From Rivularia sp. T60_A2020_040 (lineage in GTDB: Bacteria > Cyanobacteriota > Cyanobacteriia > Cyanobacteriales > Nostocaceae): DNA of 64,000 bases. The position numbers were made by a program, and so were the translations under genes. The notes under the pieces are model-generated. The model had not been told where the DNA came from and searched no databases. It saw nothing but the letters and a program-made list of their open reading frames with translations. The stretch spans positions 1-64,000 of the forward strand of contig JACYMD010000028.1 in the NCBI GenBank assembly GCA_015272215.1, written 5' to 3'. Numbering within the stretch: the first letter of the stretch is position 1; every line of letters begins with the position of its first letter. This document shows positions 13,647-42,249 of this stretch, piece after piece.

Positions 13647-14888
13647 GTGAAAGTATTATTAACAGTAGATAGCCAAGTAAGGCGAAACCTGCTAGCGTTA
13701 TTTGCAGCAGGTTTGTTATTTTGGGCTAGTTTAGCTTCATTACTGCCAACTTTACCGCTTTATATTGAAGATATAGGAGCGACAAAACAGCAGATAGGCG
13801 TAATAATGGGTAGTTTTGCCATTGGACTATTGATATTTCGCCCATTTTTAGGTCAAATAGCAGATCAACGCGGTCGAAAAATCGTGTTGATAATCGGTAT
13901 TATATCAGCAGCGATAGCTCCGATGGGCTACAATTTTGTGCAATCAATACCATTGTTAATGGTAATACGGGCTTTCCACGGTATTAGTATTGCAGCCTTT
14001 TCCACGGGATTTTTGGCATTAGTTGCAGATATTGCGCCAGTAGAAAATCGTGGGGAATTAATCGGCTATATGAGTTTAGTTAATCCAGTTGGTTTAGCAA
14101 TTGGGCCAGCTTTAGGTGGATATTTAATGGAAGCTGCTGGTTATACTTCATTATTTATATTATCCACAGCTTTGGCTTGTCTGGCATTATTATGTACCAT
14201 ACCAATTATCAATCCCATAGTTCCAGTAGAGGAGCAAGTAGTTGATAACGACAGTCCATTTTGGAAAAAATTGATTAGTCCGAGAGTGAGGATTCCGGCT
14301 TTTATCTTGTTAATCATTGGTTTGATTCTTGGTAGTTTACATACCTTTGTACCATTATTTATCAAATCAACCGAAGCAGAGTTAAATCCTGGATTATTTT
14401 ACACCGTAGTGGCGATCGCCAGTTTTTGTTCAAGGTTATTTTGCGGAAAAGCCAGCGATCGATTTGGTAGGGGTTTATTTATCACATTGAGTTTAGTTTG
14501 TTATAGTTTGGCATTACTATTATTATGGACAGCCAATAGTTCAGAGGATTTCTTATTTGCAGCGACAATCGAGGGAATTGGTGGTGGGACAATAATTCCG
14601 ATGATTGCAGCGATGATTACGGATAGAGCTTATCCTCAAGAAAGAGGAAGAATATTTAGTTTATGTATGGTAGGCTTTGATATTGGTGTTGCTCTTGCAG
14701 GGCCGATTTTTGGTTTAGTCGCTCAACACATTGGTTATCGCAACATATTCGGATTTAACTTTGCGATCGCTTTAATCGCAGTAATTATTTTTATGACTTT
14801 ATCAAGTAAAAATGTATCTGCTTCCTTACGCTTCGCTTTTGGACGTGGTGTTGATATTTATTCACTCAATAAAGTAGGAGTTAGTTGA
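13647..14888 (+). CDS. Major facilitator superfamily transporter
   Basis: 413 residues with about twelve hydrophobic helices in two halves of six. The loop between helices 2 and 3 reads GQIADQRGRKIVL, the MFS motif A (GxxxDRxGRR type), and its counterpart in the second half reads GKASDRFGRGLFI. These are inner-membrane proton- or solute-coupled exporters or importers; the overall pattern resembles drug/metabolite efflux proteins, but no substrate can be assigned. The start is GTG with no strong ribosome binding site, so a later start is possible. The gene ends in a tract of TTGACAG heptamers. Confidence 0.85.
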   Translation: MKVLLTVDSQVRRNLLALFAAGLLFWASLASLLPTLPLYIEDIGATKQQIGVIMGSFAIGLLIFRPFLGQIADQRGRKIVLIIGIISAAIAPMGYNFVQSIPLLMVIRAFHGISIAAFSTGFLALVADIAPVENRGELIGYMSLVNPVGLAIGPALGGYLMEAAGYTSLFILSTALACLALLCTIPIINPIVPVEEQVVDNDSPFWKKLISPRVRIPAFILLIIGLILGSLHTFVPLFIKSTEAELNPGLFYTVVAIASFCSRLFCGKASDRFGRGLFITLSLVCYSLALLLLWTANSSEDFLFAATIEGIGGGTIIPMIAAMITDRAYPQERGRIFSLCMVGFDIGVALAGPIFGLVAQHIGYRNIFGFNFAIALIAVIIFMTLSSKNVSASLRFAFGRGVDIYSLNKVGVS

Positions 14889-32675: not shown

Positions 32676-33695
32676 CTAGATGTTAGTTCTGTTATCTTTA
32701 ATTTCTACTGTAGCAGGTTCTGTATCGTGCAATTCAGTTTCATTGGGATTGACAACTGAAGCAGAATTATGATTTTTAGAATCTTTGGCTGCATTTTTAA
32801 CAGACTTTGCTGCATCATTGGCAGAATGTTTCACATCTTGACCTGCTTTTTTAGCAGAATCTGCCATTCCTTTTGTAGAAGACTTCACATTTTCAGCGGC
32901 TTTTTTAGTAGATGACTTCACATCATCAACTGCACCTTTAACAGAGTTTGCAGCGTTTTTCACAGATGGTTTGACATCTTCTTTGACTTCATTTACAGCA
33001 CCCTTAACAGAGTTTGCAGTCTCTTTGATGGATGGTTTAACTTCTTCAACAGCATCTTGAACCGATTTTGAGACAGTTTTCATCGCAGGTTTAGCTTCTT
33101 CTGCTGCACCTTTCAAAGAGTTTGCAGCACTTTTGATAGCAGGTTTAGTTTCATCAACCGTACTTTGTACTGAATTAGCAATATTTCTGACAGCAGGCTT
33201 AGCTTCTTCCGATACACCTTTAACTGCTTCAACTACAGAAGGCTTAGATTCTTGAACTGTATCTTTAATTGCTTCTGCGGTATCGACTACAGAAGGCTTG
33301 GCTTGCTCAACTGTATCTTTTACTTGTTCTACCACACCTTTAATAGAAGGCTTAACTTCTTCTGCTGTATCTTCTACTACATGACCTACAGTATCGATGG
33401 CGCTATTTGCGTGTTCAGCTACAGTTTCAGCAGCATCAACAACACCTTCTACAGTTTTATCAACAGCTTCAGATGTACCCTTACCAACCATTGCACCAGC
33501 TGCTGCACCGGCTACTGCACCAAGAATTCCTTTTCTTGCACCGAGTAAACCACCAATTGCAGCTCCAGCAACCGCAGCACCAATACCAGAACCCCCAGAA
33601 TTAGACTCTGAATTCTTTTGTTCTTGTTCTTGCTCTTGTTGCTCTAAGTTCTGATTTTCTGCTTGATTTTCTAAAGGTTGGTTGTTCTCATTCAT
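32676..33695 (-). CDS. LEA-like / glycine-zipper repeat protein
   Basis: 339 residues from the ATG at 33695, which follows GAGGAAA; an upstream ATG at 33719 has no such site. After a glutamine/glutamate-rich start comes a glycine-zipper stretch (GIGAAVAGAAIGGLLGARKG, GAVAGAAAGAMVGKG; about residues 35-72). The rest is an extended amphipathic helix of repeating 11- to 22-residue units of the type KPSVKNAANSVKGAV, rich in A, K, V, S and E. This pattern is that of late-embryogenesis-abundant (group 3) proteins that protect membranes and proteins during drying. A role in desiccation or salt tolerance is inferred from composition. Another LEA-like gene is at 57856-58434. Confidence 0.75.
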   Translation of the reverse strand: MNENNQPLENQAENQNLEQQEQEQEQKNSESNSGGSGIGAAVAGAAIGGLLGARKGILGAVAGAAAGAMVGKGTSEAVDKTVEGVVDAAETVAEHANSAIDTVGHVVEDTAEEVKPSIKGVVEQVKDTVEQAKPSVVDTAEAIKDTVQESKPSVVEAVKGVSEEAKPAVRNIANSVQSTVDETKPAIKSAANSLKGAAEEAKPAMKTVSKSVQDAVEEVKPSIKETANSVKGAVNEVKEDVKPSVKNAANSVKGAVDDVKSSTKKAAENVKSSTKGMADSAKKAGQDVKHSANDAAKSVKNAAKDSKNHNSASVVNPNETELHDTEPATVEIKDNRTNI

Positions 33696-34040
33696 AATAA
33701 TAATTTCCTCAGTATTCAATATTCAAACTGCTTAATTAAAAAAAATGCAGTTTATCAAACAGTATTAATTTAACAATTCAAATTTTGGAATTACACCAAC
33801 TTTAGGGAGACATTACGGAGATTGTGATTCAGTCGGAAGTTGGAGATTTAGAATTTGTGGGGTATATGTCAGGTTTTGATGATTGTTTTGTGGTGTTACC
33901 GATGTTTGTGGTAAAAACCCGACTTCTGAATAAATCAGACTTCTGTTACAAGAGGTTATGGAATGAACATTAACTCATCTTTATAATTACTGTAATTGCT
34001 AATAGTAATTAATATTAATTAAATAATAATACAGTTAATT
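33696..34040. other. Intergenic region with AAGTCGG half-element
   Basis: About 345 bp between diverging genes. AAAACCCGACTTCT lies at 33914-33927, followed by a second GACTTCT at 33938-33944, a partial copy of the AGAAGTCG palindrome family seen near 58526 and 63804. Nothing else recognised. Confidence 0.55.
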
Positions 34041-34634
34041 ATGATAATTTTTTGGCGTACTATAGCGATTGTGATAATTGTAATTTGTGTCAATTGCTTT
34101 GATTCTACAAGCGTTAGTGCAACAGCAATATCCGATTCTCAAAATATAGTATGGCGGAATGCTTATAATGCATCAATTGCAGGTGTATATAATCCTAGTA
34201 CCAAGGAAATAGAATGGAAACAAGCTCGTCATGCGGGGATTGGAGGTGTATATAATCCGACTACTCAACAAATCGAGTGGAAACAGCTATTTCATGGAGG
34301 AGTTGCAGGTGTATATAACCCGACTACTCAACAAATTGAGTGGAAAGAGGTTGTAAAATCTGGTGTTGCAGGTGCGTATAATCCGATGATACAGCAAGTA
34401 GAGTGGAAAGAAGTTGCTTTTTCCGGGGTTGCGGGTGTATATAATCCCATGATGCAAAAAGTAGAATGGAAAGAAGCATTCAAATCGGGTGTTGCGGGTG
34501 TGTATAATCCGATTACACAAAAAGCCGAGTGGAAACAAATGTTAAATTCCGGAGTTGCAGGAGTTTGCACTATCGAAGGATATTACACCTTAAATAGTTC
34601 ATCGTTTTATGGAGTTATGGCTGATTTTGATTAA
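34041..34634 (+). CDS. Secreted protein of 21-residue tandem repeats (GVAGVYNP...EWK)
   Basis: 197 residues. A hydrophobic N-terminus (residues 1-28, ending ...FDSTSVSATA) looks like a signal peptide. It is followed by about six tandem units of 21 residues with the consensus GVAGVYNPxTQQxEWKxxxxS, from about residue 46 to 172; a seventh unit starts (GVAG) and breaks off at VCTIEGYYTLN. Each unit has an invariant Y-N-P and E-W-K, suggesting a short beta hairpin per unit in a solenoid or sheet. I do not recognise the family. The gene overlaps the convergent neighbour by 20 bp at its 3' end. A structural or surface role is inference. Confidence 0.75.
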   Translation: MIIFWRTIAIVIIVICVNCFDSTSVSATAISDSQNIVWRNAYNASIAGVYNPSTKEIEWKQARHAGIGGVYNPTTQQIEWKQLFHGGVAGVYNPTTQQIEWKEVVKSGVAGAYNPMIQQVEWKEVAFSGVAGVYNPMMQKVEWKEAFKSGVAGVYNPITQKAEWKQMLNSGVAGVCTIEGYYTLNSSSFYGVMADFD

Positions 34635-35136
34635 TTGGATGTGTTTCCTGTGATTCTGGTAAATTAGCAAAGATTTCCTCAACAACTCGCTTTGCTTTAA
34701 CATCGAGTAAATTCCATTCCACATCCCCAGATTCATCTAGTAAACTAGTATCAATATCAACTTTGTCATCAGTAAGGGTGTATTCGAGAAAGCAAACCTG
34801 GTAGCATAATTCCCATAAATCCACATTTACTTGTTGCTCTTGACGCTGCAAGCACAAATGGTATCCTGGATGGGGCGTTGGCAACAATCGTAATCTTTCT
34901 TTGATTTGTTCGGCTTGTTGGGGTGTTGCAGTTTCAAGTTCTTGGATCAATTGAGTAACTATTGCTTTAGTTTGGTCATTTGTGTCAGCAGCCCAAACCA
35001 GTACGTCATGATAAGTTCCTTTCCAGGAAGAATTATCAAGTAACTTGCGAACATTGTCAATAACACGAATAAATGCTGGTTGCATGAGTAGTTCAGCCTG
35101 TTGCCATGCTAGTGAGTTTGTGATTTTAGGTGGCAT
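34615..35136 (-). CDS. Conserved hypothetical protein, soluble and acidic
   Basis: 173 residues, no membrane segment or signal peptide. Helical content is high (MPPKITNSLAWQQAELLMQP, AADTNDQTKAIVTQLIQELE) and the C-terminal half is acidic (TLTDDKVDIDTSLLDESGDV). I know no named family. It overlaps the 3' end of the plus-strand repeat-protein gene by 20 bp. It diverges from a Ser/Thr kinase gene 166 bp away. The length, codon use and absence of internal stops support a real gene. Confidence 0.65.
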   Translation of the reverse strand: MPPKITNSLAWQQAELLMQPAFIRVIDNVRKLLDNSSWKGTYHDVLVWAADTNDQTKAIVTQLIQELETATPQQAEQIKERLRLLPTPHPGYHLCLQRQEQQVNVDLWELCYQVCFLEYTLTDDKVDIDTSLLDESGDVEWNLLDVKAKRVVEEIFANLPESQETHPINQNQP

Positions 35137-37954: not shown

Positions 37955-38047
37955 AAAATTTGTATTTCACCCAAGTGAAAACCGCTATATTTGGTCAAAA
38001 TCATGATACCTAATTGTTTGGACTTTTTTTTGTATCAAGGAATGGAA

Positions 38048-38154
38048 TTGGTAATGGGTAATTGGTAATTGGTAATGGGTAATTGGTAATGGGTAATTGG
38101 TAATTGGTAATGGGTAATGGGTAATGGGTAATGGGTAATGGGTAATGGGTAATT
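38048..38154. repeat. Long heptanucleotide STRR (GGTAATT / GGTAATG)n
   Basis: About fifteen heptamers, alternating GGTAATT and GGTAATG, end close to the 3' end of the SdrD-like gene. It is the longest such tract in the window. Confidence 0.9.
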
Positions 38155-38239: not shown

Positions 38240-41200
38240 TTAATCAACTCTGACGCGGAAACGAACAAATCCAAATTGTCCACCAGCAGGTAAAGTACCT
38301 AAATTCGTAAGTACAGCACCATTTGCAGGAGTACCATTACGGCAAATATTTTGAAAATCTGCGGGTACTGGTGCTAAAGGTGATAGGAATGTACCGTTAT
38401 CCGCACCGTCACCACCTCCATTGACAAGAATACTACCGGCTACAAAAGTTGTATTGCTAGGAATTAAGTCGCAGAACTTGACATTTTGCAAACTTTCTGC
38501 ACCTTCACTTAAGAAGTAAATAGTATATTCTACGATGTCACCGCTTTGTACGGGTGTTTCTAAGCGAGTAATACCTACAGGTGAAGATTGTGGAGATGAA
38601 TTGAGTACATTATCATCATCGTCGCTGCCGTCATCTTGAAATTGATTGAAAGCAACTCCACTAATCGGTTGATTACCTCTCAATACATTGGTAATACGCT
38701 TGACTAAACGTAAGTTTATCGGACCTGATGCACCCAAACGACCGGGACGGAAACCAAAGTCAACCTCATCTGTGTCGGGATTTGCTTGAGTTAACTCAGC
38801 ACTTAAGGTTGTTTGAGTGGTAGGACTAAAGTCAGTAGGTCTTGCAGATTCTACAGTGTATGTACCAAGAGGTAAATTATCAAAAGTATAGTTACCATTT
38901 TGGTTAGTGGTTGTGGTTCCAAAATCCCTACCTGCGGAATCTCTCAAAGTTAATTGAACTCCGGGAATTCCGGGTTCCCCTTGATCTTGTACTCCATCAC
39001 CATCTGTATCATTGAAAACAGTATCGCCGATAGAACCGGGTAATCCAGTCATTCTGATACCAAAATCAGCACTATCTAAGTTTTGATTGGGTTCCAGACG
39101 TACCGGAATTGGATTAGCACCTGTGGTTAGAATACTACCATCAGGAAGCGCCATCTGTACTTGATAATTTCCTGGTGGAAGATTGTTAAAGGTATATCTA
39201 CCAGGGGTATTTTGGTTAAAAGCAAGAGTTTCAGTGTTATCGGTGCGCTGTTCATCTATTTGGTCATCCGAAGTACCAAAAACACCATCTTCTCCGGGAC
39301 GAATTAATCTAACTAAAACACCGCTAACTCCCGGTTCACCTTGATCTTGAATGCGGTTAGCATTTACGTCAGCAAAAACCGTATCACCAATGGAACCTTG
39401 GGTTGGTGGTTGAAAACCAAAATCAACTGTATCGATATTTTGACCAGCTTGTAAAGTCACTGGGTTTGGTTGAGTCAACGTTGGATTCAAACCTGGAGGA
39501 GGATTCTCAATTGTAACGGTGTAAGTACCCGGTGCTACGGTGAAATTGTAGATTCCATTTTCTCCAGTAGTAGTTCTCGCCACTTCATTTCCGTCAGTAT
39601 TTCGTAGAACTAAGGTAATTCCGGGGATTCCGATTTCGTTTAAGTCAGGAGTACCATCCCCATTGTTATCGTAGAAAACGAAGTCTCCAATTGTGCCAAC
39701 TTGTTGCGCTGAGAAACCAAAGTCAGCAGTATCAAAGTTTTGATCGCGTTGTAAAGAAATAGTACTTGGTGGTGTTTGAGTCGGACTTAAACCATCGGGA
39801 GGATTATTTACTGTAACTCTGTAGTTACCAATAGGTATATCGGGGAAACTATATCTACCGTTACTATCGGTGGTAGTGGTGGTGACGGTAATATCATCTG
39901 AGGTACCCAATTGATTATCCGGACCCGGACGAGTTAAGGTAACTACAACGTTGGGAATTCCCGGTTCACCTTGGTTTTGAGTTGCATCGCTGTTATTATC
40001 CCGATAAACGGTATCGCCGATTGTACCCGTGGGTTGGGTGAAGCCAAAATCAGCGTCCTCGAAATTTTGACCCGCATTTAAATTAATCAAACCATTAGGA
40101 GTTTGGGTTGGAGTCAATTCGCGAATTGGTTCCTGAGATTGGTCGTTAATGGTAACTCTGTAAGTTCCCGCAGACAAATTGGGGAAAGTGTAACGACCAT
40201 TTGCATCGGTTCTAGTTAGACCACTGGTATCATCATCATCAAGACTATCACCAAATACACCATCAGGTCCGGTACCGGCATAGTTGACAATTACACCAGC
40301 AATTCCCGGTTCACCTGGGTCTTGTTGACCGTTATTATTAATATCTCTGTAAACCGTATCCCCAATTGTTCCCGTACCTTGTTGTGTTGGTGCTAAACCA
40401 AAGTCAATGGTATCTAAATTTTGATTGGCTGGTAAATTAATTGTCTGTGGTGGGGTTTGAGTGGGTGTTAAACCATCGGGATTGGTAATCGTAACTCGGT
40501 AATTACCCGCAGGCAAATTAGGAAAACTATAATTACCGTTTTCGTTGGTAGTTGTAGTTTGCGTGGTATCGTCAGGAGTACCAAATTCACCGTCGGGACC
40601 GGGAAGGGTTAAAATAACCGTTACCCCTGGAATCCCAGTTTCACCTTCGTCTTGAGTATTATTACGGTTAGTATCTGTGTAAACCGTATCCCCAATACTA
40701 CTTTGTCCTTGACCTAATTGTCCCGGTACAAAACCAAAATCAACTGTATCGATATTTTGACCTGGTTGTAACGCTACAACATCCGGTTGGGTTTGAGTCG
40801 CAGTATCTCCTTCCCTAGGACTCGTTGCGGTAACTCGGTAATTACCCGCAGGCAAATTAGGAAAACTATATCTACCTTCGGTGTTAGTAGTTGTAGTTTG
40901 GGTGGTATCATCGGCAGTGCCAAGCTGACCATCGGGACCGGGAAGCGTCAAAGTAACTGTTGCTCCTTCAATACCCAGTTCACCTGCATCTTGGACATTG
41001 TTACGATTGGCATCGGTATAAACAGTATCTCCGATACTACCTACAGAAGATGGTGCATAACCGAAATCAGCAGCATCAAAATTATTACCCGCTTCTAAGA
41101 CAATAGTTTGTGGTGGTGTTTGAGTCGGAGTTAAACCATCGGGAGGATTATTGACAATAACTCGGTAATTACCCGCAGGTAAGTTAGGAAAACTGTATCT

Positions 41201-42217
41201 ACCGTTATCGTCAGTAGTAGTATTCTGGGTAGTATCGTCGGGAGTGCCAAGTTGACCGTCGGCACCGGGACTTGTCAAAGTCAAGTTAATTCCAGGAATA
41301 CCCGGTTCATCAGGATTTTGAGTACTGTCACCGTTGGTATCACGATAAACTGTATCACCGATTGTAGCTGCATTATTGACGGGCGCACAAATAGTAAATG
41401 GTGCTAAACCGATAGTTTGATCTTGTCCTGGTTCACCGAATTCCCTTCCCACTTGATATTGAATGCGGATTTGGTCTATGGCACCTCCTGGTGTGATGGA
41501 AACGTTGCCTTCACCTTGGGCGGGAGTTGAATTATCGACGATACCCAAAGCAGAATTCCCGGAAATTCTCGTAAAATTACCCAGGGATTGTAAATTAACG
41601 GGGACATTAGAAGTTTCATTAGATGCTGTTACCGTAACTACATCTTGGAAAGTTCGACCGCTATCTCGCGGACCATCGCGGTCAACATCTAATAAAGTTA
41701 AAGGTGATGCTAAGGTGACGCTTTGAGCAAAAGTAATAGTAAAAGCCGCGCTACCCGGAGAAAGATTACCAGTTTCCGGAGGTTTACCTGGTCCAATATT
41801 TAATCGTAAATTCGGTCCGGGAATACCACCGTAAATATCAGTACCAACTCTTGATTCGGTTCTATCAATAACTTGACCGGGAACTTCTTCGGTAATCGTC
41901 AAGATGGTACGGATACCGCCAATATTATACTCTTGTGTTAAATCTGATAAGTTATCACTAGGACGTAACTGTACTGTTTCTGGTGCAGTTCCCGCAGGAC
42001 AACTGGCTGTAGTTTGTGCAATAGCTTTACCGGAACCAAATATGGGTACTTGAGGTACACCCAATAATGCTGCTAATAAGGTTGTGGAGAGAAAGGGTAC
42101 AGAAATGTTGTGATGAGGAGGTGAAGTATGATATCTGCTCCGGAGACGTTCCGCTAACACCACCTTACCAGCGTTGCCTTGAGTAATTGCCGATAAATGC
42201 TTAAATAAAGCTTTCAT
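38240..42217 (-). CDS. Giant exported SdrD-B-like repeat protein
   Basis: 1325 residues from the ATG at 42217, which follows AGGA; a TTG six codons upstream is unlikely. An N-terminal signal region with an extended basic start ends near SGKAIAQ. A ~215-residue domain follows, then eight repeats of about 110 residues (about residues 285-1165), each starting GDTVYxDxNxNxxQDxGExG and ending NxDTxDFGF, the SdrD-B/Cna-B-like fold. Asp/Asn-rich calcium-binding-type loops (DTNGDSTQNPDE, DTDGDGVQDQGE) recur. The last ~155 residues look like a DUF11-type domain (GDIVEYTIYFLSEGAESLQN) with cysteines. Surface or periplasmic stalk-like protein; the gene ends a four-gene exported-protein cluster. No LPXTG or sorting anchor is seen, as expected for a Gram-negative. 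Confidence 0.88.
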   Translation of the reverse strand: MKALFKHLSAITQGNAGKVVLAERLRSRYHTSPPHHNISVPFLSTTLLAALLGVPQVPIFGSGKAIAQTTASCPAGTAPETVQLRPSDNLSDLTQEYNIGGIRTILTITEEVPGQVIDRTESRVGTDIYGGIPGPNLRLNIGPGKPPETGNLSPGSAAFTITFAQSVTLASPLTLLDVDRDGPRDSGRTFQDVVTVTASNETSNVPVNLQSLGNFTRISGNSALGIVDNSTPAQGEGNVSITPGGAIDQIRIQYQVGREFGEPGQDQTIGLAPFTICAPVNNAATIGDTVYRDTNGDSTQNPDEPGIPGINLTLTSPGADGQLGTPDDTTQNTTTDDNGRYSFPNLPAGNYRVIVNNPPDGLTPTQTPPQTIVLEAGNNFDAADFGYAPSSVGSIGDTVYTDANRNNVQDAGELGIEGATVTLTLPGPDGQLGTADDTTQTTTTNTEGRYSFPNLPAGNYRVTATSPREGDTATQTQPDVVALQPGQNIDTVDFGFVPGQLGQGQSSIGDTVYTDTNRNNTQDEGETGIPGVTVILTLPGPDGEFGTPDDTTQTTTTNENGNYSFPNLPAGNYRVTITNPDGLTPTQTPPQTINLPANQNLDTIDFGLAPTQQGTGTIGDTVYRDINNNGQQDPGEPGIAGVIVNYAGTGPDGVFGDSLDDDDTSGLTRTDANGRYTFPNLSAGTYRVTINDQSQEPIRELTPTQTPNGLINLNAGQNFEDADFGFTQPTGTIGDTVYRDNNSDATQNQGEPGIPNVVVTLTRPGPDNQLGTSDDITVTTTTTDSNGRYSFPDIPIGNYRVTVNNPPDGLSPTQTPPSTISLQRDQNFDTADFGFSAQQVGTIGDFVFYDNNGDGTPDLNEIGIPGITLVLRNTDGNEVARTTTGENGIYNFTVAPGTYTVTIENPPPGLNPTLTQPNPVTLQAGQNIDTVDFGFQPPTQGSIGDTVFADVNANRIQDQGEPGVSGVLVRLIRPGEDGVFGTSDDQIDEQRTDNTETLAFNQNTPGRYTFNNLPPGNYQVQMALPDGSILTTGANPIPVRLEPNQNLDSADFGIRMTGLPGSIGDTVFNDTDGDGVQDQGEPGIPGVQLTLRDSAGRDFGTTTTNQNGNYTFDNLPLGTYTVESARPTDFSPTTQTTLSAELTQANPDTDEVDFGFRPGRLGASGPINLRLVKRITNVLRGNQPISGVAFNQFQDDGSDDDDNVLNSSPQSSPVGITRLETPVQSGDIVEYTIYFLSEGAESLQNVKFCDLIPSNTTFVAGSILVNGGGDGADNGTFLSPLAPVPADFQNICRNGTPANGAVLTNLGTLPAGGQFGFVRFRVRVD

Positions 42218-42249
42218 TTTGTGCTTCCTAAACAACGAAAATTAAAGAA

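Follow-up and report, generated by a model that had tools for sequence, protein, structure and literature searches.

The gene described here lies in a window of 64,000 nucleotides, the whole stretch of Rivularia sp. T60_A2020_040 DNA that was analysed. It encodes a protein of seven 21-residue units, the same number being present in its orthologues in three further genomes of the genus, and it is under purifying selection. The explanation that we tentatively favour, while rating it at somewhat less than an even chance, is that the product is a genus-restricted, selectively maintained, secreted protein, the two-stranded units of which may close into a seven-fold ring enabling multivalent binding. 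Ring or not, the sequence family is real; it is selectively maintained, is found in one genus and at one chromosomal site, and is without a description in the literature and databases searched.

Gene product and repeat array

The earlier note on this DNA assigned the reading frame to a secreted protein with a signal peptide. The frame is indeed present on the forward strand (Table 1), and the orthologue alignment reveals a signal-peptide-like N terminus, comprising R6, a hydrophobic stretch and a V-x-A27 motif, so that secretion is probable. R6, I10-I13, V25 and A27 are invariant in all four orthologues (that of the window included), residues 2-21 form a helix in the AF2 model, and cleavage would likely occur after V-S-A27. 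A second copy of the gene is absent from the same genome, the only other match (E 0.046) being the same gene read on the opposite strand, with four stops. A promoter scan of positions 33720-34800 gave one site, which lies within the repeat gene itself; shuffled sequences give more.

Table 1. Positions in the window of the repeat gene and its parts
Feature	Positions	Strand	Basis
Repeat protein gene, 197 aa plus stop	34041..34634	+	ORF and orthologue alignment
Probable Sec signal peptide, residues 1-27	34041..34121	+	Orthologue invariance, AF2 helix 2-21; cut placed by eye
Unit 1, NIVWRNAYNASIAGVYNPSTK, degenerate W strand	34143..34205	+	Unit alignment
Unit 2	34206..34268	+	Unit alignment
Unit 3	34269..34331	+	Unit alignment
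Unit 4	34332..34394	+	Unit alignment
Unit 5	34395..34457	+	Unit alignment
Unit 6	34458..34520	+	Unit alignment
Unit 7, KAEWKQMLNSGVAGVCTIEGY, ends SGVAGV, without YNP	34521..34583	+	Unit alignment
C-terminal tail, residues 176-197, overlapping the end of unit 7	34566..34631	+	Orthologue alignment, AF2

The 21-residue YNP...EWK periodicity reported previously is borne out by a protein self-identity of 0.477 at offset 21, compared with a best value over offsets 5-59 that never exceeded 0.155 in 2000 residue shuffles. The periodicity begins at residue 35, and TRF likewise recovers the reported 63-bp DNA period, at 34177-34561 (score 246; the doubled period scores 326). YNP and EWK each occur six times at a spacing of 21, starting at residues 50, 71, 92, 113, 134 and 155 for the former and 58, 79, 100, 121, 142 and 163 for the latter. 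The earlier count of six units thus holds for the motifs, but in register the array comprises seven, opening with a W strand (NIVWR) and closing with a GVAGV strand; the first (NIVWR...) and last (...GVAGVCT) are degenerate, with five regular units between them. The description of the units as near-identical was too strong, since adjacent ones share 57-76% DNA identity (41-76% for units across the array) and any two share 24-76% protein identity.

Over the 28 units of the four orthologues, W4 is invariant, G14 and V15 are each present in 27, and E3, K5, G11, Y16, N17 and P18 in 24. Positions 1, 6, 8, 19 and 20 show the largest differences between the window's own genome (G000) and G188, its most divergent orthologue-bearing relative. 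In the C-terminal tail 12 of 22 residues are invariant among the four orthologues, and AF2 confidence is low.

Age, selection and distribution

The orthologues in G186, G189 and G188 are 90%, 88% and 65% identical to the window protein, all being of 197 residues and aligning without gaps, with seven in-register units in every case and no change of length, a constancy resting on effectively two lineages. This count, taken up as a check that the earlier note had proposed, gives no support to its suggestion of recent expansion, which is contradicted by the DNA: units in G186 and G189 match their window counterparts position by position at 89-100% identity, as against the lower identities within the array, and are closer to those counterparts than to their neighbours. 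Recent expansion was therefore rejected. The array is older than at least the split of the window, G186 and G189 genomes and, given that the end units and unit count are kept, most likely also older than the split from G188.

It seems not to be wholly static. Numbering from 0, units 1 and 2 of G188 are 90% identical to each other and group together in the unit tree, from which it appears that internal units were partly homogenised there later. In the same tree units 0, 4, 5 and 6 cluster by position, while the placement of G188 unit 3 next to units 3 and 5 lacks resolution. Judged on plain identity, the same-position unit is the best match for four of seven window units in G188, and for five of seven in the reverse direction. 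For six genome pairs dN/dS is 0.19-0.32 when the repeat region is taken alone and 0.20-0.43 when the gene is taken as a whole, which reveals purifying selection.

The gene is present in four of the eight genomes of the genus, that of the window included, and no credible relative was found beyond the genus among family genomes, a phylum sample, a contig collection, plasmids, phages and viral contigs. Within 217 family genomes, 21 gave a match at E <= 0.01, four of these being the orthologues; of the remaining 17, 14 have a best match that crosses stop codons, and the three open frames (L015, L019 and L022, E 0.003-0.009) were judged by eye to be unrelated (methyltransferase-like with a different repeat, PEP-CTERM-like and ATPase-like). 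A two-unit profile matched five of 208 genomes, the fifth weakly (G216, E 0.0099, with a stop). In 386 genomes drawn evenly from the phylum, a draw that apparently did not take in G186, G188 and G189, since they are unmatched there, only the window's genome and two weak matches (E 0.005 and 0.009) were recovered. A scan of an 84,980-species contig collection by exact 8-residue peptide patterns, which detects close relatives only, gave one locus, in the MAG Richelia sp. SL_2_1 (the same locus as in G189). Plasmid records, phage records and viral contigs yielded no relative; a Streptomyces plasmid match (E 0.08) was dismissed as antisense to an annotated gene. On the evidence so far, the family thus appears to be genus-restricted.

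All four carriers have the gene between ygfZ and a gene for a 173-residue protein, which is followed by a kinase gene; a gene for a helical, apolipoprotein-like protein adjoins it in three of the four, no match to the latter below 1e-10 being found at the G188 locus. None of these neighbours (YgfZ, the helical protein, the 173-residue protein, for which no family was found, and the Ser/Thr kinase) points to a function via an operon or partner. The four non-carriers (G185, G187, G190 and G191) have the helical and 173-residue protein genes on one contig, which in G191 stops short of ygfZ, and in all four the start of the helical gene and its upstream DNA are recognisable. The interval in the non-carriers contains no HMM remnant of the repeat gene and only short DNA matches (E 0.035 or worse); in G190 this refers to two pieces, ~6 kb apart, of a 17-kb interval, the whole-genome searches of G190 being negative. 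Because the non-carriers form one group in an unrooted tree of two neighbour proteins, a single gain or a single loss suffices to explain the distribution. The interval measures ~0.6 kb in both G185 and G191 and ~17 kb in G190, and that in G187 (L075:4075-7835) encodes a 1086-residue STAND/TPR-like protein and a 167-residue protein; the site thus takes different cargo.

Several other features of the region were observed. The 173-residue protein gene (34615-35136, reverse strand) and the repeat gene share 20 bp, at the 3' end of the latter. Relatives of the 173-residue protein attain its full length only through stops (G186 and G189) or, in the other five, align only to residue 161-162, so the window copy seems to lack a stop that they have near codon 161. 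The helical protein (32676-33719, reverse strand, divergent to the repeat gene) is a Lys/Ala-rich repeat protein that scores over the cut-off of the apolipophorin-III profile and under that of the apolipoprotein profile. The G189 ygfZ-like gene (L070) is interrupted by seven stops in the aligned frame, reflecting either degradation or assembly error. Further along, 38240-42235 (reverse strand) encodes a 1331-residue protein with eight SdrD B-like domain stretches. The window also contains 7-bp tandem arrays, e.g. 15 copies of AATGGGT at 38046-38153, with more at 14883, 27474, 31411, 32575, 37124, 37790 and 42248; similar short tandem repeats are known in cyanobacteria.

Occurrence in a single genus and absence from half of its sampled genomes, which implies that the gene is not essential across the genus, would be in keeping with a secreted protein of structural or decorative type, with repeats serving for stability or bulk only and not for recognition of a specific ligand. 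We consider this rather improbable, however, because E3, K5 and N17, besides being conserved in 24 of 28 units, are identical between G000 and G188.

Predicted fold and its alternatives

In accord with the earlier note, which recognised no family, every match to the repeat protein in Pfam, NCBIfam, PHROGs, PADLOC and PDB sequences was sub-threshold. The best Pfam match, ToMV_Hel_N (E 0.0036; 17.8 bits, the cut-off being 27), covers residues 15-71 and so extends into the signal peptide; NCBIfam and PHROGs gave CtpZ (E 0.014) and phrog_24674 (E 0.0034) as their best matches. A Plectin repeat is sub-threshold in Pfam, at E 0.67 with the protein and 0.085 with two-unit stretches. Of the nine rows that Pfam gives for the protein up to E 10, a range in which HMMER filters remove most matches above ~0.1, none is a WD40, kelch, PQQ, FG-GAP or Asp-box family. 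There is likewise no propeller family in Pfam for the two-unit stretches, and none was found among PDB sequences.

AF2 run on the four orthologues predicts 14 short strands across the repeat, two per unit (pTM 0.68), with a mean pLDDT of 75-88 in 11 of 15 ten-residue blocks and lower values at both ends. When AF2 was run again with the G188 protein, less its signal peptide, as the lead sequence, the strand pattern was very similar (pTM 0.72); the two runs use the same four sequences and so are not independent. Only the best of five models per run is near a mean pLDDT of 70, the other four being at 48-58 and 56-64. The AF2 output as used consists of strand assignments and scores, and not coordinates, so that ring closure is not visible in it.

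Foldseek gave no match at E <= 0.001 for either model (best PDB E 0.36 and 0.37), and those to viral models (best E 0.12, TM 0.30-0.36) were taken as noise. When the Foldseek candidates were given a second look with VIA-align, 86 of 993 and 32 of 998 chains reached Z 5. The best are 4jsp_C for the first model (Z 8.8; 150 residues, rmsd 3.6) and 8ptz_B for the second (Z 7.3; 135 residues, rmsd 3.9), both near noise in that models without a true match typically reach a best Z of 7 to 8 and a Z under 8 may mean a common arrangement only. Both alignments span whole propellers. The matches listed (50 and 47) are, judging from titles, presumably all propeller-containing, some naming the complex only, with the chain guessed; several of the weaker ones for the second model are fucose lectins, which we take to be propeller lectins. 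The top model may thus hint at a ring to which each unit contributes about two strands. The earlier note had proposed structure prediction as a means of recognising a beta solenoid or sheet; beta strands are predicted, but the aligner lists propeller-like chains and not solenoids.

The favoured reading is that, after removal of the signal peptide, the seven strand-turn-strand units (x-I/V-E-W-K ... S-G-V-A-G-V-Y-N-P) would fold into a closed ring resembling a miniature beta-propeller whose blades are two-stranded. Each blade would be an NP-turn hairpin (GVYNP....EWK), six of them continuous, and the seventh would be completed by pairing of the N-terminal W strand with the C-terminal GVAGV strand. 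With its W strand first and its GVAGV strand last, the array has a phase that would allow this but is only consistent with it, because any repeat array may begin in any phase. A ring of this type could offer repeated binding sites outside the cytoplasm, e.g. for sheath sugars or those of other cells. Because every unit has its W and few lack Y, N, E or K, a multivalent binding protein is probable; binding of sugars is a guess by analogy with propeller lectins.

By contrast, the same units might be arranged in an open-ended beta array, either a stacked beta-arch solenoid or a functional-amyloid subunit (in principle curli-like), with ladders of W, Y and N, that polymerises in the sheath. The short strand-turn-strand unit, the (nearly) invariant aromatic and Asn positions and the probable secretion are compatible with such an arrangement, and in both models the two strands of several units are separated by a single residue, which would fit a beta arc. 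That the unit number is equal in all four orthologues argues against an open array, as does the fact that Pfam, up to E 10, lists neither curlin nor any other repeat family save sub-threshold Plectin. Among the VIA-align matches listed, no chain was recognised as a solenoid, curlin or MORN protein, an observation that excludes none of them. On balance, we doubt that the array is open-ended.

Comparison with known repeat proteins

The MORN repeat (PF02493) is also a short unit, of 23 residues compared with 21 here, and by eye the motif order E-W-K ... G ... V-Y ... P, with its W, G and Y, is similar, raising the question of whether the units form a MORN-like single-layer hairpin sheet, through kinship or convergence. 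We regard this as very unlikely. Pfam lists MORN neither for the protein (up to E 10) nor for any of its two-unit stretches (up to E 1), and a PF02493 search of G000 gave no matches at E <= 0.001. The profile test failed: when hhalign compared the two-unit profile with 13 MORN units taken from a single G188 protein, the score was 7.8 over one aligned column, and 15 of 40 column-shuffled controls scored higher. MORN was rejected on the basis of this small test, on one MORN protein.

Curli-type amyloid repeats are strand-turn-strand units of ~20 residues bearing the curlin Gln/Asn motif. The present protein shares the unit type and, probably, secretion, but differs in having no curlin row in Pfam, no apparent Gln/Asn motif and a constant number of units. 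With respect to 21-residue repeats in cyanobacteria, no relevant paper was found in a search that lay mostly outside subscription journals.

Beta-propellers (WD40, kelch and fucose-lectin type) also consist of tandem beta units, and the alignments of the AF2 models to solved propellers take in almost the entire ring, albeit at near-noise Z. Termini located in mid-unit, as in the repeat protein, would allow a composite closing blade. However, no sequence similarity to propellers was found in Pfam or among PDB sequences, and propeller blades are four-stranded, as described in PMC9218822 and PMC3797127. The prediction of two strands per 21-residue unit, in models of moderate confidence, argues against a classical blade. 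According to PMC9218822, cyanobacterial chitinase propellers that are closely related to one another have 3, 4, 6 and 9 blades; since cyanobacterial propellers of high identity can vary in blade number, an unchanging unit number does not by itself mark out a propeller. The terms 'hairpin', 'two-stranded' and 'velcro' are absent from the main text of PMC9218822, and no paper on propellers with two-stranded blades or on hairpin toroids was found, subscription journals again being mostly outside the search. It is conceivable, although we think it improbable, that the protein is a natural toroid of seven two-stranded, 21-residue blades; it would then be the smallest propeller-like ring, limited to one cyanobacterial genus and without sequence kinship to known propellers, and hence possibly a case in which a propeller-like fold arose de novo from a hairpin. 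The fold is hypothetical; if the ring is real, the protein would be a natural half-blade propeller and would enable a direct test of how toroidal folds start from a single hairpin.
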